From Mediterranea sp. (in: CFB group bacteria) (GTDB taxonomy: Bacteria; Bacteroidota; Bacteroidia; Bacteroidales; Bacteroidaceae), in NCBI GenBank assembly GCA_031262385.1, contig JAISHU010000080.1, positions 1-32,723 of the forward strand: a stretch of DNA of 32,723 nt, read 5' to 3'. The notes below the pieces were generated by a model. It was not told where the DNA came from, did no database searches, and saw nothing but the letters and a program-made list of their open reading frames with translations. Positions 9,715 to 22,235 of this stretch are shown piece after piece. Position numbers and translations under genes: made by a program. Position 1 is the stretch's first letter; every line of letters begins with the position of its first letter.

Positions 9715-9740
9715 AGCATATTAGTGCATTAGCACCTTAT
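9709..9740. repeat. Octamer tandem repeat (consensus CACATTAG)
   Basis: CACATTAG / CATATTAG / TGCATTAG / CACCTTAT directly abutting and overlapping the stop codon of the minus-strand CDS; related motifs at about 9113-9126 and 13691-13725. Confidence 0.6.
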
Positions 9741-10918
9741 TCCACATACAACACCAATCCTTTCAGATATTCACCTTCGGGATGGTATATGTTTACCGGA
9801 TGATCGGCAGGCTGTGTAAGCTGATGAAGAATACGCACATTGCGTCCGGACATGGCGGCGGCAGTGAAAACAGCCGTACGGAAATTGTCGCGACTTACCG
9901 CCTGCGAACAAGAGAAAGTAAATAAGATACCTCCCGGTCGAATCTTCTCAAAAGCTTTCACGTTCAGCTTACGATAACCTTGCAGTGCATTGCGCAAGGC
10001 ATCCCGATGCTTAGCAAAAGCAGGCGGGTCTAATACAATCAGGTCGTAGCGGTCGTCTATTTTATCCAGATATTTAAAGGCATCTTCGGCAAATGCGGTA
10101 TGGCGTTCATCGCCGGGAAAGTTCAGTTCCACATTCCGGTTGGTTAAGTCAATGGCTTTCGCCGAGCTGTCCACCGAGTGAACCAATCGGGCACCACCGC
10201 GCATGGCATAAACAGAGAAACCACCGGTATAGCAAAACATATTCAGCACCGAACGTCCGCCGGCATAATGTTCCAGCAGTCGACGATTCTCGCGCTGGTC
10301 GACAAAGAAGCCGGTCTTCTGACCTTTCAACCAGTCGATGTGAAACTTCAGTCCGTATTCCACGGCGATATTATCTGTTCCGCCCCCTTTCAGGAATCCG
10401 TTTTCGGGGAAGAGGTCGGCTTTGAAAGGCAGCGTAGTTTCCGACTTGTAATAGATATTGTCGATATCCTCTTTCATAACTTCACTCAAGGCTTCGGCAA
10501 TCTCCATTCTGCACACGTGCATACCTGCCGAATGAGCCTGCATCACCGCAGTACGGGCATAGATATCCACCACCAAGCCGGGCAGGTTATCGCCTTCGCC
10601 GTGCAGCAAGCGGTAGGTGTTGTTAGTGGGGTTTCCCGCCACACCGATGGCTTTGCGCATCAGGTATGCCGCACGCAGTTTGCGCATCCAGAACTCGCGG
10701 TCGATGCGTTCGTCTTGCTTAAAAGAGAGCACCCGCACGGCAATGCTTCCTATCTGATAATGTCCTTTGGCTATAAATTCGCGGCGGGAAGTATAGACAT
10801 CCACCACATCGCCTTCGTCAGGCTTTCCTTCGAGGGTTGCAATGGCTCCCGAAAACACCCACGGATGAAACCGCTTTAACGATTCCTCCTTGCCGGGTTT
10901 CAAATAAACAGTTGGCAT
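9737..10918 (-). CDS. rlmI: Class I SAM-dependent rRNA methyltransferase, RlmI/YccW-like with N-terminal PUA
   Basis: MPTVYLKPGKEESLKRFHPWVFSGAI PUA-type start; YGLKFHIDWLKGQKTGFFVDQRENRRLL, VLNMFCYTGGFSVYAMRGGA, YDLIVLDPPAFAKHRD. Start at 10918 preferred. Confidence 0.85.
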   Translation of the reverse strand: MPTVYLKPGKEESLKRFHPWVFSGAIATLEGKPDEGDVVDVYTSRREFIAKGHYQIGSIAVRVLSFKQDERIDREFWMRKLRAAYLMRKAIGVAGNPTNNTYRLLHGEGDNLPGLVVDIYARTAVMQAHSAGMHVCRMEIAEALSEVMKEDIDNIYYKSETTLPFKADLFPENGFLKGGGTDNIAVEYGLKFHIDWLKGQKTGFFVDQRENRRLLEHYAGGRSVLNMFCYTGGFSVYAMRGGARLVHSVDSSAKAIDLTNRNVELNFPGDERHTAFAEDAFKYLDKIDDRYDLIVLDPPAFAKHRDALRNALQGYRKLNVKAFEKIRPGGILFTFSCSQAVSRDNFRTAVFTAAAMSGRNVRILHQLTQPADHPVNIYHPEGEYLKGLVLYVE

Positions 10919-10926
10919 ATATATTA

Positions 10927-11520
10927 TTAGGTGTGAGATTTTAAATTCAGCAGATGCCGATAAATGTGCAGGCATGCCCACGCATCGGTAGCTGCATAGA
11001 GTTGTTGCGATGCGGTCAGCGTTTCGGCTTCCCAGTTAGAGAGGCGTTGCGACTTCGATATTTTGCAACCGAACAAAATGCCGTAAATTTTTTGCAGACT
11101 CTTCTCCTTAATACCAAATTCGCGCACATAATCCTGCAAATCAAGGCAAGCGTTTTGCCGAAACGGAGCACGTTTGTGTAGCATCAGAAAGTCATCGCGT
11201 AACGAAAGACCTACCTTCAGCACTTTGTCACTTTCCAGTAAGGCAATCAGCGGAGGCGTCAATCCTGTGATATTCAATCGAAACAGATAACACACATCGT
11301 CGGATGCCACCTGCAACAAAGCCACTTTATGCAACTGCCCTTTTACGAACGAAGGGCGGGTTTCGCTGTCTATCCCCACCACGCCGCAGCGCATCAGGTA
11401 ATCAACCGCCCGCTTTACTTCTTCCGCAGTGGAGGCTACATGTACCTCTCCCTTAAAGAGCGCCTTCGGCATGGCTCTCAGTTCTTCTTTATCGATGGTT
11501 TCTCTAATCGTCATTGTCAT
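10927..11520 (-). CDS. 3'-5' exonuclease (RNase D/DnaQ-like DEDDy fold)
   Basis: 197 aa. GVVGIDSETRPSF, KVALLQVASDDVCYLFRL, KVGLSLRDDFLML, CLDLQDYVREFGIKEKSLQKIYGILFG, QLYAATDAWACLHIYRHL. Confidence 0.88.
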   Translation of the reverse strand: MTMTIRETIDKEELRAMPKALFKGEVHVASTAEEVKRAVDYLMRCGVVGIDSETRPSFVKGQLHKVALLQVASDDVCYLFRLNITGLTPPLIALLESDKVLKVGLSLRDDFLMLHKRAPFRQNACLDLQDYVREFGIKEKSLQKIYGILFGCKISKSQRLSNWEAETLTASQQLYAATDAWACLHIYRHLLNLKSHT

Positions 11521-12031
11521 TCATACTGTACTTCACCTCGTGCAAGGCACGCAGGGTATTTACCAAAGTTTGCCCCCAGTATTCTCGGTATTGAGCCTGA
11601 CAGACGGCTATGGCGTCGTGCATAGTCTCGGTCAAACCCAATTTATAGATACTCACAAAATCTTTTACTGATTGATAGATGTCCGACACATCTTCGGACA
11701 CGCTGCGACGAATGGGCTGGTCGCTATATTTCATATCTTGTAGAAAGACGTCCAGATAGTCGTCGCCATCGCCCATAATGTTGTTTAGGGTGATGCGCAA
11801 CACCTCATAAGTTTCTTCGGTTACGAAGGTTTCGGGTTCTTCTTCGCCCAGAACCTCAAATTCGGGCAGCATCTCCGCCTTCAGGTAGAGCAATGGAAGC
11901 AACTTCAGCATCGTGTCGATAAAGGCATCTTTTCGGTGATGTTCGGCTTGCTCCACGAAATTGCAAAACTCAAAAGCCACCGTAACAAACTCTACTACAT
12001 TACGGCTTATGATGGGTGGATTCTTCTTCAT
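11504..12031 (-). CDS. DUF5063 domain-containing protein
   Basis: 175 aa. NVVEFVTVAFEFCNFVEQAEHHRKDAFIDTMLKLLPLLYLKAEMLPE, FLQDMKYSDQPIRRSVSEDVSDIYQSVKDFVSIYKLG; overlaps the exonuclease gene by 17 nt. Confidence 0.7.
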   Translation of the reverse strand: MKKNPPIISRNVVEFVTVAFEFCNFVEQAEHHRKDAFIDTMLKLLPLLYLKAEMLPEFEVLGEEEPETFVTEETYEVLRITLNNIMGDGDDYLDVFLQDMKYSDQPIRRSVSEDVSDIYQSVKDFVSIYKLGLTETMHDAIAVCQAQYREYWGQTLVNTLRALHEVKYSMNDNDD

Positions 12032-12152: not shown

Positions 12153-12182
12153 TTTGCTGTTTGTTTAAATACACTACTTTTG
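12153..12182 (+). promoter_or_regulatory. Candidate promoter for the SWIM/MoxR/DUF5682/VWA cluster
   Basis: TTTG (12153-12156), 18 bp spacer, TACTTTTG (12175-12182); ATG at 12219. Confidence 0.6.
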
Positions 12183-12218: not shown

Positions 12219-13661
12219 ATGGAACTCACTCCGTACAACATCAATTCTCTGGCACCCAATGCCGATGCCATGAAAAACGGGCGCGCACTGACAGGCAAGC
12301 TCGACAAGCTTCAGCGTACCGATGACCACACGCTCATCTTTGGTCAGTGTGCCGGAAGCGGCAAACAACCTTATCAATGTTCGGTAGACCAACTAAACAC
12401 CGATAAACCTATCTTCCGTTGCAGTTGCCCCAGTCGGCAAACCCCTTGTAAACATGTACTTGCACTGATGTATGCGTATGCCGAAGGCAGGTCGTTCGAC
12501 GTGATGCCCGTGCCCGAAGAGATTGCACTAAAGCGGGAAAAACTGTTGCAGCAAGCCAAAAACAAAGCAGCGAAAGAGGAGCAAAAAGCACAGGGAGAAA
12601 CATCGGCATCACCTGATAACCGGAACACAACCCGGTCGCACTCCGCCGCCAAAAAGAAGAAGATTCTTACCCAACTCACCGGTGTGGAGCAGGCGGGTAA
12701 ACTGCTGCACACCATTGTGCAAACAGGGCTTTCTGCCATAGATATCCAAGCCGAAAAGGGACTTAAGATTCAGATAAAAGAGCTGGGCAACTACTATATA
12801 AGCGGCATTCAAAATGCTTTTACCGATTTGCTTGAGATGCTGCACAACGTGCACAATGCGCAGTACACCCAACCCATCTTACAACTGGGCTATCTGCATG
12901 CCTTGCTACAAAAAAGCCACTCTTACCTCACCGACAAACTCAATCATCCGGATGTGGCGGAAGTGACTTCGCCCATAGAAGAGCAGATTGGTTATGCGTG
13001 GAAGCTCGACGAGTTGTACCGCTACAATCGCTGGCAGCCCGATGCCGAACTGCTGCAACTGGCATTTTATTCTTACGACAACCCGAACCGTCGTGAATGG
13101 GTGGACGAAGGCTACTGGATAGAACTACACACCGGACGCCTGTTTAAGACACGCAACTATCGCCCTTATCGCGCCGCAGAGCACATCAAAGCCGAAGACA
13201 GCTTCCCCTACATCCTGCAAACCGAGCGCCTCTACATCTATCCGGGCGACATCAACCCGCGCATCCGCTGGGAGAGCGGTAAAGAGCGCGATGTTACCAT
13301 CGCCGACATTAATGCGATTAAGCAGTACGCCCATACCGACTATGCCGAGCTGGTGAAGCAGATAAAGAACACCATCAAAAATCCCTTGAACGACAAACAT
13401 CCCATTGCCTTAGTAACTCTGCACAAAGCTTTTAAAAGCGACTACGCCGTCTTTGTAGAGGATAACGAAGGACACCTGCTCACATTGAGCGACATCTCCT
13501 ACTTTGGCGACGATGTGCTGATTCCGTTGGAAACTTGGTTTCCGTCGCAACTCGACGGCACGGTCATGGCAGTGATGTTCGACTGCGATTTGTACACCGG
13601 CATCCTCACGGCGCGTCCGCTGGCGTGGATTACAAATCGGGTGATTACGTTCCTTTATTAA
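12219..13661 (+). CDS. SWIM zinc finger domain protein (YehQ-like)
   Basis: 480 aa. SWIM motif CxCx6CxH in PIFRCSCPSRQTPCKHVLALMYAYAEG; first gene of the cluster. Confidence 0.82.
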   Translation: MELTPYNINSLAPNADAMKNGRALTGKLDKLQRTDDHTLIFGQCAGSGKQPYQCSVDQLNTDKPIFRCSCPSRQTPCKHVLALMYAYAEGRSFDVMPVPEEIALKREKLLQQAKNKAAKEEQKAQGETSASPDNRNTTRSHSAAKKKKILTQLTGVEQAGKLLHTIVQTGLSAIDIQAEKGLKIQIKELGNYYISGIQNAFTDLLEMLHNVHNAQYTQPILQLGYLHALLQKSHSYLTDKLNHPDVAEVTSPIEEQIGYAWKLDELYRYNRWQPDAELLQLAFYSYDNPNRREWVDEGYWIELHTGRLFKTRNYRPYRAAEHIKAEDSFPYILQTERLYIYPGDINPRIRWESGKERDVTIADINAIKQYAHTDYAELVKQIKNTIKNPLNDKHPIALVTLHKAFKSDYAVFVEDNEGHLLTLSDISYFGDDVLIPLETWFPSQLDGTVMAVMFDCDLYTGILTARPLAWITNRVITFLY

Positions 13662-13727
13662 TGGACAATAAGCCGTACATGACTTTATTCGCATATTAGC
13701 ATATTGACAATTAGCACATTATTAGAT

Positions 13728-14540
13728 ATGAAACCTTTAAATGATTTTCGCCAAGACATAGACCGCCTGCTGGTAGCAGGCAGCAAATTTGCCAAAAACG
13801 ACCCGCGGCTATCCAAACATCTCGCTATACTAAACGCACTGGGCGAAAAAGTACCTGTGTTTAAGCGCATGGCACAACAAACCGAAGTACTGTTGCACGC
13901 TGATGCCGACACATCAGCTTCCATGTTGCTTGAGCTGACTAACTTACTCTATGCCGTGCTTTACACGCAAAGCGACACGGCTCCAATCGACAACCCCGTA
14001 CGGTTGACCCCCGTCTTACCACAGCAAGCACTGATTACTACAGCTACGTATAAGCAGTTACGTCCCGTAATAGAGGCACTTACCAATGCACCTGCCGGTC
14101 GCTACGACACCGTCCTAACAGCTTTTAAAGCGGGAATGTTTGGCGACTTCCGCCTGTTTGCTCCCCTCAACCGCGGACTGGAAGACAGTTATTCGGAACT
14201 TACCGACTTGATAGAGACACAGATTATACCTTCCGTAGGCGAAGCGATGATACCGATGATACTGAAATCGTTCGTCATAGACAACCGCAAGCCCAACCTA
14301 CGCCGCCTGCGTCTGCTGAACAACTTGGGCTACAAAGAACGACACTCACTGGCACTCGAAGTGCTGAAAGAGGCTAAATCCTCCGATTGGCAAGCGCAAG
14401 CCGTGACGATGCTGAGCGACGACATACAATACCTCGACTTCCTCTGCACACTCACCACCGACAGACATAAAGTCGTAAGCGAGGCTGCCAACAGGGCGGT
14501 AAAACTACTGAAAGCAAAGATTGTAGCCAACAATCCCTAA
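13728..14540 (+). CDS. Uncharacterised alpha-helical, HEAT-repeat-like protein
   Basis: About 270 aa from MKPLNDFRQDIDRLL. C-terminal helical pairs NLRRLRLLNNLGYKERHSLALEVLKEAKSSDWQAQAVTMLSDDIQYLDFLCTLTTDRHKVVSEAANRAVKLLKAK resemble HEAT repeats. Confidence 0.6.
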   Translation: MKPLNDFRQDIDRLLVAGSKFAKNDPRLSKHLAILNALGEKVPVFKRMAQQTEVLLHADADTSASMLLELTNLLYAVLYTQSDTAPIDNPVRLTPVLPQQALITTATYKQLRPVIEALTNAPAGRYDTVLTAFKAGMFGDFRLFAPLNRGLEDSYSELTDLIETQIIPSVGEAMIPMILKSFVIDNRKPNLRRLRLLNNLGYKERHSLALEVLKEAKSSDWQAQAVTMLSDDIQYLDFLCTLTTDRHKVVSEAANRAVKLLKAKIVANNP

Positions 14541-14578
14541 ACCATAACTACACCTTATTATATAAGACCTTCATCAAA

Positions 14579-15679
14579 ATGGAAAAGAACAAAACAGAAG
14601 TACTCCGCCTCCCCGCCGAACGGCTTTATCAAGCTGAGTTGGAGGCGTTGATGCTGGAAGACCGCAACGAAGAGAAACCCGTGGGCTGGCAACTGTCGCC
14701 CCGTGCCGTACTGAAATTTGTAGTGGGCGGCAAAAGCGGCAAAACGCCTATTACCCCCAAATATATGGGTTACAACCGCTTGGTGGAGATTGCCATTGCC
14801 ACCCTGCTTACCGACCGTGCTTTGCTACTCATCGGCGAACCGGGCACGGCAAAGTCGTGGCTGTCGGAAAACCTGACGGCTGCCATCTGCGGCGACTCGG
14901 GCAAAGTGATTCAAGGCACGGCAGGCACCGGCGAAGAACACATTCGCTACTCGTGGAACTATGCCCTGCTCTTGGCGAACGGTCCCTGCGAACAGGCGTT
15001 GATTAAAAGTCCCGTCTACCGCGCCATGGAGAGCGGCAGCATCGCCCGCTTCGAAGAGATTTCGCGCTGTACCTCCGAGGTACAGGATGCACTGATTTCC
15101 ATCTTGTCGGAAAAGAACATCGCCATCGCCGAACTCTCGCAAGAGCTTTCGGCACAGCGGGGCTTCTCCATTATCGCCACCGCCAACACACGCGACCGCG
15201 GCGTGAACGACATGTCGGCGGCACTAAAACGACGCTTCAACACCGTGATGTTACCTCCGCCCGCCGGCTTGGAGTTAGAAATGGACATCGTTACCAAGCG
15301 CGTTGCCGAGATTGCCGGAAACTATCGCCTCAAAGCGGCGATGCCTGCCGATGCCGTGATAGAGAAGATTGTGACCGTATTTCGCGAACTGCGCAAAGGC
15401 ATCACGCTCGATGAGAAACAAAAGGTGGCATCTCCCGGAGGCATCATCTCTACGGCGGAAGCCATCTCGCTTATTACCGGCAGCATGGCACTGGCGGCAG
15501 GCTTCGGCAACGGAACCGTTACGGACACCGACCTCGCCGCCAGCTTGCAAGGTGCCATCGTAAAGGACGAGGAGAAAGACCGACGTGTGTGGAAAGAGTA
15601 TCTGGAAAATGTGATGAAGAAGCGGGGTGCCAAATGGCGCGGATTGTATAACGCCTGTACCGAACTCAATGAAGGATAG
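14579..15679 (+). CDS. MoxR-family AAA+ ATPase (YehL-like)
   Basis: 366 aa. Walker A LLIGEPGTAKSWL; Walker B region SIARFEEISRC; sensor 1 IIATANTRDRGVNDMSAALKRRFN. Confidence 0.9.
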   Translation: MEKNKTEVLRLPAERLYQAELEALMLEDRNEEKPVGWQLSPRAVLKFVVGGKSGKTPITPKYMGYNRLVEIAIATLLTDRALLLIGEPGTAKSWLSENLTAAICGDSGKVIQGTAGTGEEHIRYSWNYALLLANGPCEQALIKSPVYRAMESGSIARFEEISRCTSEVQDALISILSEKNIAIAELSQELSAQRGFSIIATANTRDRGVNDMSAALKRRFNTVMLPPPAGLELEMDIVTKRVAEIAGNYRLKAAMPADAVIEKIVTVFRELRKGITLDEKQKVASPGGIISTAEAISLITGSMALAAGFGNGTVTDTDLAASLQGAIVKDEEKDRRVWKEYLENVMKKRGAKWRGLYNACTELNEG

Positions 15680-17954
15680 TATCTTTGGCGTGCGTCATCT
15701 CTCGCCTACGGCTTCGTGGCATTTGCTAAACTTCCTCAACGAACGGAAGCCGCACTGTGTGCTTATCGAAGGACCGTCCGATGCCACCGAACTCCTGCAT
15801 AACCTCGCCGACACACGCATCACGCCGCCCGTGGCGTTGCTGGCTTACACCTGCGAATTGCCGATACGCACCGTACTCTACCCTTTTGCCGACTACTCAC
15901 CGGAGTATCAGGCAATACGATGGGCGGCGGAGCACAACGCCGAAGTACGCTTTATCGATTTGCCCACAGAGGTGTCGCTGGCGTTCCGCGAACAGATGCC
16001 CGACGGTAACGACGAAGCACGCCGCAACTTTTATGCGTACAGCGACTGCCTGTACGAACAACTGGCACACCACTACCGCGAGGCGGACTACGAAAGCTAC
16101 TGGGAACGGAACTTTGAGCACAACCTTGAGCCGCAGGCTTTTCGCAACGCCGTCTTGCTGCAAAGCAGTGAGATGCGGCAACTGTCGGAACACAAGGAAC
16201 AAGATGCCGACACCGCACAGTATGCTTACAATCTGGTGCGCGAGGCTTACATGCGCCGTTGTCTGACACATGCCGTTGCCGACGGATATGCTCCCGCCGA
16301 TATTGCCGTGATAATAGGTGCCTACCACGCCCCGGCACTGACGGAAGAGCTTCCGCCGATGAGCGATGCCGAGCTGCACGGGCTACCGCGTGTGGAGACA
16401 CGCACGACGCTGATGCCCTATTCGTATCTGCGGCTGAGCAGTCGCACCGGCTACGGCGCAGGCAACAAAGCGCCGTACTACTTCGAGTTGATGTGGCACT
16501 GCATGACCCGGCAACAGCAACGGCAACTTCCTGCCCTGTACCTGTCGCAAGTGGCGGCGGCTCTGCGAAAAGAGGGATGGAACGCTTCGTCGGCGTCGGT
16601 GATTGAGGCAGTGCGACTGGCAGAGTCGCTTGCCTCGATACACCAAGGCAACATGCCGGTGCTCGAAGACCTGCACGATGCCGCGATAACTTGTTTGGGC
16701 GGCGGAGACCTCTCGGTGGTGGCGGAAGCCGTGAACCGCTGCGACATCGGCACAGCCATAGGCAACCTGCCCGAAGGAGTGAGCCAGACACCTGTGCAAG
16801 ACGACATGAACCGTCAACTCAAACGACTCAAACTGTTGCCGTACAAATCACCCGTAGCACAGTCCGTCAGCTTGGACTTACGCGAGAACTTCCGTGTAAA
16901 GAGCGAAGAAGCTGCCTTTACCGACCTCCGTCGCTCCACCTTCTTTCATCGCCTCAAGTTGCTCAACATTCATTTTGTCACCCTGATACCCGGCAAGCAG
17001 CAGGGAGCCACGTGGGCAGAAAACTGGTCGCTCCAATGGTCGCCCGAGGTGGAGATTGAGGTGGTCGAAGCTACATTGAAAGGCGAAACCATAGAGATTG
17101 CCGCCGCCTTTCAGCTTAACAAACTGCTGGAAGAGTCTGTCGGCATAGAGCAGACCACCACCTTGTTGCGTACGGCTTGCGAATGTGCGCTTACCGAGAA
17201 TTATGCCCACGCGCTGGCTGCCGTACAAGTGCAGGCGGTTGAGGCATCTTCGTTCGGCGAGGTGGCGGGCGCAGCCTATCAGTTGTCGCAACTTATACAG
17301 TACGGCACTCTCCGCCGCATCGACATCCAACCGCTGGAACCGTTGCTGGAACAACTGTTTCTGCGCGGTGCCTTGTTGCTGACGGACGCAGCCGCGTGCG
17401 ACGCTCGGGCGGCAAAGGTCGTTGCCGGGGGCATCAACCTGATGGAGCTTATCGCACAAGAGCAGGATGAACGGGTGGATGTAAAGACGTGGCAAAGCAA
17501 ACTGCTAAAGCTTGCCTTCGCGGACGACCGCAACGCTTATCTTTCGGGCTTGGCTTTCGCCATTGCCTTGGAACACGGTTGGGTCGACGACGGGGCGTGT
17601 GCCAAAGAGGTGTCGTTACGGCTGTCGGTAGGCGTACCCGCCGATCTCGGCGCAGCATGGTTCGAAGGCTTGGCGGGACGCAACCGCTACGCACTATTGT
17701 CGCGTATCACGCTGTGGAAAGAGCTGGACAACTATGTACAAAGCCTCGACGAAACCGAGTTTTACCGCGCCGCCGTGTTTCTGCGGCGTGCTTTCGGCGA
17801 GTTTGAACCGTCGCAAAAGAACAGCATCTACGAACTGCTTTCGGGCTTGTGGGGTAGCGACGCAGCAGAAACCGCCGAAGCTATTGCCGAGGCTTTGGAC
17901 GAAAACGAAGAGGAGAAGCTGCAAAACCTGAACGATTTTGAATTTGATTTCTAA
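15669..17954 (+). CDS. DUF5682 family protein (YehM-like)
   Basis: 762 aa from MKDSIFGVRHLSPTASWHLLNFL; VLIEGPSDATELL; VIIGAYHAPALTEELP. Overlaps the MoxR gene by 11 nt. Confidence 0.8.
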   Translation: MKDSIFGVRHLSPTASWHLLNFLNERKPHCVLIEGPSDATELLHNLADTRITPPVALLAYTCELPIRTVLYPFADYSPEYQAIRWAAEHNAEVRFIDLPTEVSLAFREQMPDGNDEARRNFYAYSDCLYEQLAHHYREADYESYWERNFEHNLEPQAFRNAVLLQSSEMRQLSEHKEQDADTAQYAYNLVREAYMRRCLTHAVADGYAPADIAVIIGAYHAPALTEELPPMSDAELHGLPRVETRTTLMPYSYLRLSSRTGYGAGNKAPYYFELMWHCMTRQQQRQLPALYLSQVAAALRKEGWNASSASVIEAVRLAESLASIHQGNMPVLEDLHDAAITCLGGGDLSVVAEAVNRCDIGTAIGNLPEGVSQTPVQDDMNRQLKRLKLLPYKSPVAQSVSLDLRENFRVKSEEAAFTDLRRSTFFHRLKLLNIHFVTLIPGKQQGATWAENWSLQWSPEVEIEVVEATLKGETIEIAAAFQLNKLLEESVGIEQTTTLLRTACECALTENYAHALAAVQVQAVEASSFGEVAGAAYQLSQLIQYGTLRRIDIQPLEPLLEQLFLRGALLLTDAAACDARAAKVVAGGINLMELIAQEQDERVDVKTWQSKLLKLAFADDRNAYLSGLAFAIALEHGWVDDGACAKEVSLRLSVGVPADLGAAWFEGLAGRNRYALLSRITLWKELDNYVQSLDETEFYRAAVFLRRAFGEFEPSQKNSIYELLSGLWGSDAAETAEAIAEALDENEEEKLQNLNDFEFDF

Positions 17955-17971
17955 AGAACGAGGAGATCCGG

Positions 17972-19144
17972 ATGAACGAAGATATCAAACAGAAGCTGGT
18001 GCGCTGGCGCCTCATCGTGGGGCAGGCGGGTGTCGACAACCGTGCCGGCGACGTAGAACTTACTTCGCAACAAAGCATTATGGATGCCGCACTGGCGGCT
18101 ATCTACGACGACACCACAAGCACCGACGGAAAGCAAGGTGGAGCAAGCAAACAAGGTGGTTTGGGCAATTCGTCGCCCCGACTTGCCAAGTGGTTGGTAG
18201 ACGTGCGTACGTTCTTCCCGCCCGATGTGGTAAGCGTGATACAAAACGACGCCATAGAACGTAAAGGGTTTACCAAACTGCTGCTTGAACCCGAAACTCT
18301 GAAAAACATTACGCCCGATATTCACATGGTGGGCACACTGCTGGCTCTGAAGGGACAGATTCCCGAAAAGTCCAAATTCTTAGCCCGGCAGATGATACGT
18401 ACGGTGGTCGACGACATCATCAAACGACTGGGACAAGAGTTGCGACGTGCCGTTACCGGAGCCATCAACCGCCGCAACCACTCTCCCCTGAGCAATGTCT
18501 CGGCAATCGACTGGAAACGCACCATTGCCGACAACCTGCGCCACTATAACCCCGACACCCGCTGCATCATCCCGCAGAAGTTTTGGTTTTTCGAGCGCAG
18601 CCGCAAACAAAAACAGTGGAGCGTTATCCTCGACATCGACCAAAGCGGTTCTATGATGGACTCTATCATCTACTCGTCTGTAATGGGTTCTATCTTGGCA
18701 AGCTTGCCTACACTCGACACGCACGTGGTGGCGTTCGACACGCAGGTTGTAGACCTTACCGATCTCTGCCGCCACGACCCCGTCGACATGCTCTTTGGTT
18801 TGCAGTTGGGAGGCGGAACCGACATCAACAAATCGGTGAAATATTGCCGTACGCTCATTACCGACCCACGCAAAACCATATTCATCCTTATCTCCGACCT
18901 CTACGAAGGCGGTGTGGAAGCCGGACTCTTACGCCGTCTCCAAGAGATGCGCGACGCCGGCGTAAAAGTGATTACCCTGCTGGCTCTGTCCGACGAAGGC
19001 AATCCCTCGTACGATACCGATTTGGCAAAGAAAATAGCCAAACTCGGCATCCCCTGCTTTGGCTGCACCCCCGACCGCCTGCCCGAATTGATAGAAGCGG
19101 CACTCAAAGAACGTGACTTAATGCGATTCGGAAAGAGTTTCTAA
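17972..19144 (+). CDS. VWA domain protein with intact MIDAS (YehP/CoxE-like)
   Basis: 390 aa. VILDIDQSGSMMDSIIYSS (DxSxS), LQLGGGTDINKSVKYC (MIDAS Thr), IFILISDLYEGG (MIDAS Asp). Confidence 0.88.
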   Translation: MNEDIKQKLVRWRLIVGQAGVDNRAGDVELTSQQSIMDAALAAIYDDTTSTDGKQGGASKQGGLGNSSPRLAKWLVDVRTFFPPDVVSVIQNDAIERKGFTKLLLEPETLKNITPDIHMVGTLLALKGQIPEKSKFLARQMIRTVVDDIIKRLGQELRRAVTGAINRRNHSPLSNVSAIDWKRTIADNLRHYNPDTRCIIPQKFWFFERSRKQKQWSVILDIDQSGSMMDSIIYSSVMGSILASLPTLDTHVVAFDTQVVDLTDLCRHDPVDMLFGLQLGGGTDINKSVKYCRTLITDPRKTIFILISDLYEGGVEAGLLRRLQEMRDAGVKVITLLALSDEGNPSYDTDLAKKIAKLGIPCFGCTPDRLPELIEAALKERDLMRFGKSF

Positions 19145-19361: not shown

Positions 19362-21425
19362 ATGAAAAGTGATGAAATGTATTTCCCTCAACAAACAGAG
19401 GAGAAGGGAAATGATGGAATAGAACTGATATATTCATATCTGATACATTGGAAATGGTTTTTAGCTATCACTGTGCTGGCGTTTTTAGGTGCGTATATTT
19501 ATATTCGTATCACAAAACCCGTGTATCAGGCTACTGCGGCTATTGCCATTTTTGATACCGAAGACGACGATCGCGAATCGAACGATTTCTTTTCGGGAAG
19601 TATCCGGAATCTGTCGCTGACAGGTAATCGACTGGAAGACGAGAAAGTTGTATTGACTTCTCGTTATATCTTGCTACGTGTCGTAGAGTCGATGAACATG
19701 TACGACGATTTCGACGGCGACTCCTTGCGGGCACTCGCGCACTGCCGCAGCAATCTGTCGGTAGCCTCCGCCAGTAAAAACGGCTCGGTGCTGAACATTA
19801 CCTTTACCGACACCGAACCCGAACGGGGACGCGAGATTCTGGAAACTCTTATCAAAGAGTACAACCTCGAAGCACTGAGCCACCGGAGGCGCATGGCTCA
19901 AGCCATGATTAGCTTCCTTGACGAACGTCTGCTGATGATTTCCAACAGCTTGGGCTATACCGAACAGAGCGTGCAGTCGTACAAAACGCAAGAGCAACTG
20001 ATTGACCTCCGCACCAACATGTCGATGGACCTGAACGCCAAGCAAAACTACGAAGACAAGCTGATGGATGTGGAGATTCAACTCCACATGAGTAATTACA
20101 TCTACGAATTTCTGAATAATCAATCCAAACAATATCAACTGCTTCCTATCAACAGCGGCGTACTGCGCACCGAAGTCTCGGAAATGATTGGCAACTACAA
20201 CCAGCAGGTGCTGGAACGCGAACGGATGCTCAAGACCATGGAGGAACGGAATCCGGTAGTGGTGAAGCAGACCGAGACAATCAACGCCATCCGTCGCAAT
20301 CTGCTAAGCTCCGTCGAAGGCTTGCGGGAGGGACTTGAAATGAGTCGCAACGAGATTATGGGGAAAAGCGAATATTTCAACCTGCGCGTGAAGAACATGC
20401 CGAAACACGAACAGCAGGTGCAGTCAATGAACCGTCATCAGCAGTTGGAATCCAGTCTGTATATGATTCTACTGGAACAACGCGAACGGGCACGAATTGA
20501 ACTTGCTATCAGTACCGACCGCGTACGCATCATTGAAGAACCCATGTACAGTGTCGCACCGATAGCCCCCCGGTCGACTGTGATTTATGGCGGCAGCTTG
20601 TTGATGGGTTGGATAGCGGTGGCGGGCGTCATCTTCTTGCGCAACATGCTTCGAAAAAAGATTGTCACCCTCAACGAAATCGAAGAAGTAGGACTGCCCA
20701 TCGTGGCGAAACTCCCTTTTATAAAGAGAGGCGATCGTAGCGAGAAGCGACAACTGCAAGTGTTGGACGAAGCTTTCCGCCGGATGCGGAGCAATGTGCG
20801 CGCGCAACTGCCCGTTGATGCGAAAACCATTTTGATAACCAGCGCGGGGTCTAACGAAGGTAAGACGTTCTGTAGCATCCGGCTTGCTAAAAGCTTGTCG
20901 CTGCTCGACTGTCGCGTGTTACTGGTGGGGCTTGACTTGCGCAACCCGCAAATAGGGAAGTTTTTCGGAGAAGAAGATAAGATAGGCATCGCCGACTATC
21001 TGTCGGGCAAGGTGAGCGACCCCGAAGAGCTTATCCATCCGGTAAAAGACAGCTTCAACCTGTTTGTGGTGACGGCGGGAACCCACAACGAACAGTCGGC
21101 GGAACTGTTGGAGCGAAACCATCTGAACGCACTCTTCGAATGTTTCCGCCTGCACTTCGACTACATCGTAATAGACTCGGCACCCATCGGCTTGGTGGTA
21201 GACACCTTCTCGCTGCTGCGAGTGACCGACTATACCCTGTTTGTCAGTCGCATAGGACATACCGACCGGCACATGACCGAAATACTCTCCGAAATGAAAA
21301 ATAACGGTTGGGAAACCGAGAAAATGGCAATGATTGTGAACTGCGTCAACCACACCGAAGGTTACTACTATCATCATCACCGCTATTATTATTATTACTA
21401 CCGCCGCTACTCACACTACGAATAA
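19362..21425 (+). CDS. Wzc-like polysaccharide co-polymerase / tyrosine autokinase (BY-kinase)
   Basis: 687 aa. Wzz-type N-term (IELIYSYLIHWKWFLAITVLAFLGAYIYIRITKPVYQATAAIAIFD), second TM near VIYGGSLLMGWIAVAGVIFL, kinase motifs ILITSAGSNEGKTFCSIRLAKSL, VLLVGLDLRNPQIG, DYIVIDSAPIGLVVD; Tyr-rich C-terminus. Confidence 0.92.
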   Translation: MKSDEMYFPQQTEEKGNDGIELIYSYLIHWKWFLAITVLAFLGAYIYIRITKPVYQATAAIAIFDTEDDDRESNDFFSGSIRNLSLTGNRLEDEKVVLTSRYILLRVVESMNMYDDFDGDSLRALAHCRSNLSVASASKNGSVLNITFTDTEPERGREILETLIKEYNLEALSHRRRMAQAMISFLDERLLMISNSLGYTEQSVQSYKTQEQLIDLRTNMSMDLNAKQNYEDKLMDVEIQLHMSNYIYEFLNNQSKQYQLLPINSGVLRTEVSEMIGNYNQQVLERERMLKTMEERNPVVVKQTETINAIRRNLLSSVEGLREGLEMSRNEIMGKSEYFNLRVKNMPKHEQQVQSMNRHQQLESSLYMILLEQRERARIELAISTDRVRIIEEPMYSVAPIAPRSTVIYGGSLLMGWIAVAGVIFLRNMLRKKIVTLNEIEEVGLPIVAKLPFIKRGDRSEKRQLQVLDEAFRRMRSNVRAQLPVDAKTILITSAGSNEGKTFCSIRLAKSLSLLDCRVLLVGLDLRNPQIGKFFGEEDKIGIADYLSGKVSDPEELIHPVKDSFNLFVVTAGTHNEQSAELLERNHLNALFECFRLHFDYIVIDSAPIGLVVDTFSLLRVTDYTLFVSRIGHTDRHMTEILSEMKNNGWETEKMAMIVNCVNHTEGYYYHHHRYYYYYYRRYSHYE

Positions 21426-21437
21426 CTCTTTTACGCC

Positions 21438-22235
21438 ATGAAACAAATCCGTATATCCCTCTTAACGGCACTCGTTGTCGTATTGGTCTTCACTGCTTGC
21501 GGCTCTACCAAGCAGGTCTCTTATCTGCAAGATTCAATCACTCTTCCCATAGATACGGCGACTACCGTCTACCAAGCGCGCGTATGCCCTCACGACCTAC
21601 TCACCATCAGTGTAAGCAGCTCGGACGAGGATGCAGTACGACCGTTCAACTTGGTGGTTCCCAACAGCCACTCCGACTTTGTATCGACACACAACACGTG
21701 GAGTGCCCCCATCTTGCAGAATTATCTGGTGGATGCAGCAGGTACCATCACCTTCCCCACCCTTGGCAAGCTAAAGGTAAGCGGACTTACCACGCCCGAA
21801 GTGGCGGAACTGATTGTACGCGAGACCAACCATTACCTCAAAGAAGCCCCAATCGTAACGGTACGCATCGTCAACTACAAGATTTCCATATTGGGCGAAG
21901 TGAACCATCCCGGCGTCTATACCATCAACAACAGCTACGTCAACCTGCTCGAAGCATTGGCTATGGCGGGCGACCTCACCATTTACGGCAAGCGCGACAA
22001 TATCCGCATCATTCGCCGGCAAGACGACCGACAGCGTATTATCACACTCAACCTCAACGACCAAAACATCATCCACCATCCCGACTATTACCTGCAACAG
22101 AACGATGTGGTGTATGTAGAACCCCATAAAAACAGGCAACACGAAGTCGGCATGAGCAAACGTACCGACCTCATTTTGCGCATTGCTTCTATCTTGGCTA
22201 CTTTGGTTGCACCTTTCGTTTATTACGTTTTCTAA
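21438..22235 (+). CDS. Wza-like polysaccharide export lipoprotein (SLBB/BexD)
   Basis: 265 aa. Lipobox LVFTACGSTKQVSYLQD; HDLLTISVSSSDEDAVRPFN; VDAAGTITFPTLGKLKVSGLTTPEVAELI; ISILGEVNHPGVYTI. Confidence 0.9.
   Translation: MKQIRISLLTALVVVLVFTACGSTKQVSYLQDSITLPIDTATTVYQARVCPHDLLTISVSSSDEDAVRPFNLVVPNSHSDFVSTHNTWSAPILQNYLVDAAGTITFPTLGKLKVSGLTTPEVAELIVRETNHYLKEAPIVTVRIVNYKISILGEVNHPGVYTINNSYVNLLEALAMAGDLTIYGKRDNIRIIRRQDDRQRIITLNLNDQNIIHHPDYYLQQNDVVYVEPHKNRQHEVGMSKRTDLILRIASILATLVAPFVYYVF

Follow-up and report, generated by a model that had tools for sequence, protein, structure and literature searches.

We identified five open reading frames (ORFs), all on the plus strand, at positions 12219 to 19144 of a 32,723-nucleotide stretch from Mediterranea sp. 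(contig JAISHU010000080.1; this whole stretch is called the window below). They encode, in order, a SWIM zinc-finger protein, a HEAT-like helical protein, a MoxR-type AAA+ ATPase, a DUF5682 protein and a VWA protein. The cluster is a Bacteroidales copy of a widespread and unstudied bacterial operon, which is yehL-yehM-yehP-yehQ in Escherichia coli. The module is genuine, its conservation is wide and its membership is firm. A first-pass annotation, made from the letters alone, had proposed a conserved, uncharacterised MoxR-VWA-centred system akin to this E. coli set, and both protein identities and synteny support the proposal. Both the gene set and the named MoxR subfamily YehL were already known, YehL being one of two MoxR ATPases in E. 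coli K-12 (PMC3893208). As far as our analysis shows, the readings of DUF5682 as Tiki-type and of the SWIM protein as OB-type, given below, are new.

The conservation of the module was assessed in relatives of the DUF5682 protein taken from genome contigs. At least 568 stretches encode such a relative, and the best 80 of these were kept for locus analysis. We ran the profiles of the five window proteins over all ORFs of the kept loci and counted the 63 loci with enough flank. The exact SWIM-HEAT-MoxR-DUF5682-VWA order on one strand was found in 49 of the 63 loci, which makes it the most frequent arrangement among the sampled relatives, and MoxR, DUF5682 and VWA were contiguous in 62. These two counts indicate more than a chance arrangement. 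Conserved synteny, the absence of which had been named beforehand as an argument against the set, thus strongly favours it. The genes of the relatives are tightly packed (median gaps between successive genes of 16, 11, -4 and 3 nt), and fusions link SWIM to DUF5691 in Hymenobacter and DUF5682 to VWA in Paenibacillus sp. 32O-W (L040). Over 59 loci, the five proteins gave pairwise distance matrices that are correlated with one another at r = 0.84-0.95, values that come without a background control and to which shared species history contributes. Among the matches listed, the closest DUF5682 relatives were from Capnocytophaga, Tannerella, Dysgonamonadaceae and Prevotellaceae (55-59% identity), followed by Paenibacillus and Myroides. 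Further relatives were found in Planctomycetes, Verrucomicrobia, Chloroflexi, cyanobacteria and Polyangium.

The sole exception to synteny was Capnocytophaga periodontitidis (G903), where DUF5682, MoxR (79%) and VWA (69%) lie on three contigs (L014, L166, L167), each surrounded by other genes; in their immediate neighbourhoods, which is what was inspected, we saw no SWIM or HEAT genes. The three genes also lie on separate short contigs in a metagenome-assembled genome (MAG) of Prevotellaceae (G904; L016, L168, L169). Both genomes keep MoxR, DUF5682 and VWA at 55-79% identity. Because the three proteins are retained even without linkage, the pattern suggests that they act together as a functional unit.

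The E. coli set (yehI-yehL-yehM-yehP-yehQ) shares with the window the contiguous MoxR (42% identity), DUF5682 (28%) and VWA (35%) genes, in the same order, and the presence of a SWIM gene. It differs in its overall order (DUF4132-MoxR-DUF5682-VWA-SWIM), in the length of its SWIM protein (667 aa), which resembles that of the window over the finger region only, and in the lack of a DUF5691/HEAT gene. The SWIM-DUF5691-AAA-DUF5682-VWA clusters of Deinococcus, Rhizobium and Hymenobacter, like the E. coli set more distant relatives, have the gene order of the window. The first gene of the Rhizobium cluster (325 aa, annotated as hypothetical) matches the SWIM profile, and in Hymenobacter, besides the fusion, a 203-aa gene is inserted. 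The module had been described as a Bacteroidales version with a different order and an extra helical protein. Its relationship to the E. coli set stands, but neither the order nor the helical protein is peculiar to Bacteroidales: an architecture specific to this group is ruled out, since the same order is the commonest across the sampled relatives. Conversely, in at least one locus from the taxonomic order of the window genome (L098) the SWIM gene follows the VWA gene, in an E. coli-like arrangement, and gene order is therefore not set by lineage.

The DUF5682 protein (YehM family, 761 aa, 15669..17954, Pfam DUF5682 E-value 7.5e-149) lies between the MoxR and VWA genes. Its AlphaFold2 model (mean pLDDT 89.7) has an N-terminal alpha/beta domain (about residues 1-260), the remainder being mainly helical. 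In hhalign profile comparisons, this N-domain aligned with ChaN over 177 columns at a score of 30.9, where 150 shuffles averaged 14.1 and reached at most 21.8; against TraB it scored 32.9 (shuffles: mean 13.1, maximum 18.9). The score against EreA was at the edge (22.0, shuffle maximum 21.1), and four unrelated families scored 13-16. The alignments placed the GxRH and GAxH motifs of DUF5682 on their ChaN counterparts, and GAxH on its TraB counterpart. Below the Pfam thresholds, TraB_PrgY_gumN matched seven of 29 DUF5682 members (best 0.003) and ChaN two of 29 (best 0.02). A hidden Markov model (HMM) of ChaN separated DUF5682 from 1108 other proteins with an area under the curve (AUC) of 0.945. 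The motifs G7-x-R9-H10, E34, R191-E192-x-x-M195 and G217-x-x-H220 are 97-100% conserved, and the putative active-site residues H10, E34, R191 and H220 do not vary across the range from Bacteroidales to E. coli. Active Tiki enzymes use a His/Glu/His set plus a basic residue (PMC6254334), a pattern that these four residues match in order. The DUF5682 N-domain thus very probably belongs, as a distant relative, to the Tiki/ChaN/TraB superfamily, with which it shares the motif order (GxxH, E, R, GxxH), the alpha/beta topology and a profile similarity above controls. What sets it apart from that superfamily is its placement in a longer chain of 761 aa that includes a helical C-terminal arm, and its tie to a MoxR-VWA pair. 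The domain would most likely be a hydrolase, with peptidase or esterase as the predicted activity.

The SWIM protein (480 aa, 12219..13661) carries its CxCx6CxH finger, CSCPSRQTPCKH, at residues 68-79 (Pfam SWIM, 2.1e-5, above cut-off). In its AlphaFold2 model (mean pLDDT 89.2) the N-terminal finger is followed by a helical middle part, and the C-terminal half is rich in beta-strands. In a Foldseek search of the model against the PDB, the best matches were HIN-200 domains, which belong to cytosolic DNA sensors (E = 3e-4, with probability 1.00, up to 2e-3), followed by RPA, with its tandem OB domains, and other OB-fold proteins that bind single-stranded DNA. The C-terminus (about 272-480) probably consists of two OB-like beta-barrels; we infer the limits of the matched region, residues 272-480, from the secondary structure of the model. 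The protein is a probable nucleic-acid binder.

The MoxR protein (366 aa, 14579..15679, Pfam AAA_5 3.7e-35) belongs to the YehL subfamily and is 79% identical to a Tannerella MAG protein. Its Walker A motif, GEPGTAKS, is complete. The Walker B motif has EE (E159 E160) rather than DE, which is invariant in 17 aligned homologues including E. coli YehL, and an arginine pair (R218 R219) is also conserved. The Pfam family bpMoxR matched at 22.4 bits, under its 27-bit cut-off. The VWA protein (390 aa, 17972..19144, Pfam VWA_CoxE 9.2e-52) is CoxE-like and has a complete metal ion-dependent adhesion site (MIDAS; DQSGS...GGTD...SDLYEGG), with conserved residues D223, S225, S227, D309 and T283/D284. The intact Walker A, MIDAS and SWIM finger reported by the first-pass annotation are therefore all present.

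The remaining protein, the HEAT-like one (13728..14540), has about 270 aa, compared with about 560-690 aa in relatives, and gave no confident Pfam match. Its ORF opens at TTG 13704, but ATG 13728 fits the alignment of homologues and is most likely the start. The protein occupies the slot of DUF5691 in Rhizobium, Deinococcus and Hymenobacter, and the second gene of the Deinococcus and Hymenobacter clusters matches Pfam DUF5691 itself. The hhalign score of the window protein against DUF5691 proteins was 29.2 over 77 columns (60 shuffles: mean 13.2, maximum 17.9), a remote match. We regard it as a putative shortened form of the DUF5691-slot protein. It might also have been a part of DUF4132, but this was ruled out as there was no signal. 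The HEAT gene is tandemly duplicated, with two to three copies per operon, in three relatives (L064, L068, L085).

Gene content, conservation and fold similarity are what the analysis shows; going further, we infer that the five products may form a single complex, of the YehL-type MoxR-VWA class. In the MoxR-VWA pairs studied so far, the VWA protein holds a substrate peptide via its MIDAS and the MoxR ring passes on an ATP-driven change (PMC7159879). By analogy, a MoxR hexamer with the VWA protein as adaptor would remodel a target protein or complex at the expense of ATP, while the MIDAS of the adaptor grips a substrate peptide. DUF5682 is the natural third component, because it is encoded between MoxR and VWA and is once fused to VWA. 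It would be the catalytic one, its Tiki-type N-domain cleaving and its helical arm docking on the motor. The SWIM protein, with its zinc finger and OB-like barrels, and the HEAT protein would recruit the target, most plausibly a protein bound to nucleic acid, and the overall role would be nucleoprotein or protein quality control. We give a little less than even confidence to this reading of the module as an ATP-regulated, targeted remodelling-and-cleavage machine composed of a MoxR-VWA motor, a Tiki-type DUF5682 hydrolase and SWIM/HEAT targeting. A narrower version, in which YehL-type operons in general encode an ATP-driven, nucleic-acid-guided hydrolase with DUF5682 as a Tiki-fold peptidase and the SWIM-tandem-OB protein as its guide, is more tentative and in our view doubtful. 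The literature that we found describes no MoxR system that combines a MoxR-VWA motor, a Tiki-fold peptidase and a SWIM-tandem-OB protein. The named candidates for catalytic residues in DUF5682 and the probable nucleic-acid-binding half of the SWIM protein make this anonymous, multi-phylum cluster directly testable, and E. coli K-12 offers a ready model for the YehL-type operon.

Several observations weigh against the remodelling-and-cleavage reading. The mostly GumN-type TraB HMM failed to separate DUF5682 from other proteins (AUC 0.61), and the Tiki match obtained with a single-sequence HMM was under the curated cut-offs. The Glu of the RRSP E-x-H motif, two residues before the first His, is missing in DUF5682, as in TraB. 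A whole-chain Foldseek search of the DUF5682 model against the PDB gave no significant match, the helical repeats dominating the comparison. The OB matches of the SWIM protein have target-normalised TM-scores of just 0.3-0.4, and the C-terminal half of the relatives, itself poorly conserved, is missing from the HEAT protein of the window. Finally, we found no experiments on, or function for, YehL-type operons in the literature searched. That search also returned no paper on DUF5682, and a PDB sequence search with the profile of its N-domain gave no meaningful match.

The module might instead mature an enzyme, as chaperones of the CoxD-CoxE, CobS-CobT or NorQ-NorD type do: MoxR and VWA would insert a metal or cofactor into it, and the Tiki-like DUF5682 would bind metal or haem and cut nothing. 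This is the best-studied role of MoxR-VWA pairs, the VWA protein is of the CoxE type, and the hhalign coverage of DUF5682 is best for the haem-binding ChaN family. The DUF4132/WGR proteins adjoining the E. coli set are moreover MolR-like by annotation. Yet no gene for a client metalloenzyme recurs in the flanks of the module, such systems would not be expected to contain a SWIM-OB protein, and 10 of 16 hosts lack DUF4132. MoeA, of molybdenum cofactor synthesis, is absent in eight of 16 hosts, including the window genome (84% complete), Myroides and Longibaculum. This rules out the general molybdenum-cofactor role that the MolR-like label would imply, and disfavours the molybdenum form of the cofactor insertion put forward by the first-pass annotation. 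We consider the maturation chaperone rather unlikely. A pure assembly chaperone for some complex, with DUF5682 as a catalytically dead scaffold, is very unlikely. Some members of the Tiki superfamily do lack catalytic residues and activity (PMC6254334), and DUF5682 itself lacks the first Glu of the 2His/2Glu set, but invariance of His10, Glu34, Arg191 and His220 over such a phylogenetic range would be unusual for a dead enzyme.

A role in anti-phage defence or another biological conflict had also been suggested. The module would then follow the logic of the MoxR-vWA ternary systems (Kaur et al. 2020) or of MADS, with DUF5682 as effector and the SWIM-OB protein as nucleic-acid sensor. It has in common with the ternary systems a MoxR, a VWA and a third component. 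However, a Pfam scan of the five window proteins gave none of the VMAP, beta-propeller or STAND (e.g., iSTAND) components of those systems, and the third component is invariable, unlike their effectors. In favour of such a role, the distribution of DUF5682 is patchy: it is rare in Bacteroidota (seven of 297 sampled genomes), it was found in nine of 295 genomes of the order of the window, two further genomes from the genus of the window both lack it, and 19 of 299 genomes matched in the family of the L064 host. Some relative copies are on plasmids and one adjoins restriction genes. MoxR gave a weak match to MadB and, with PADLOC (PADLOC-DB 2023, MADS included), a weak match to mad8 (19 bits), but this last was the only family match in the PADLOC search. 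No relative was found among 2.9 million viral contigs and no defence gene recurs in the flanks, which are ordinary and show no recurrence beyond small clades. These last results rule out a phage-borne or defence-island element, and with neither neighbourhoods nor PADLOC in its support, a conflict role is unlikely.

The five co-directional, packed genes of the first-pass annotation were confirmed by the ORFs, including the 11-nt overlap of DUF5682 with MoxR (stop at 15679) and the 17-nt gap to VWA (17954/17972). These follow from a DUF5682 start at ATG 15669, whereas the ORF list opens earlier, at GTG 15627. The claim of one upstream promoter also held: a DNA pattern search gave a Bacteroidetes-type match, TTTG-N18-TACTTTTG, on the plus strand at 12153..12182, 36 nt upstream of the SWIM start codon. 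The window holds no other match, where chance would give 0.08, although seven of 100 shuffles also had at least one. There were no terminator-like sites on the plus strand between 12000 and 19500. Upstream, on the minus strand (9737-12031), are divergent genes for an RlmI-like rRNA methyltransferase, a protein with a 3'-5' exonuclease domain and a DUF5063 protein. Downstream, 217 nt past the cluster (19362-22235), genes for a Wzz/AAA chain-length protein and a polysaccharide export protein are the start of an exopolysaccharide locus, outside the module.

Some relatives show additional genes in or near the module. DUF5682 is separated from VWA by an RtcB RNA-ligase gene and two more genes in a Clostridia MAG (L073:3499-6839), and by a RelB-like/PIN-like pair, a toxin-antitoxin by eye, in another locus (L041:3737-4486). 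The clpS-clpA-aat genes of the N-degron pathway lie 4-60 nt past VWA in four Lachnospiraceae-type loci (L055, L059, L064, L080), and an Hsp33 chaperone gene lies directly past VWA in three gut strains (L039, L047, L058; gaps of 12, -14 and 39 nt). Among the 19 matching genomes of the L064 family, ClpS was at most 1.5 kb downstream only in the starting one (L136) and Hsp33 in none, and we treated a link to protein quality control through these downstream genes as clade-local. The L064 genome also encodes five tandem DUF4132 genes, on a contig separate from the module (G589:C5:51102-66364). On the conjugative E. coli plasmid NZ_CP103756.1 (L005), the yehI-yehR region lies between copies of IS26, near blaCTX-M-15.

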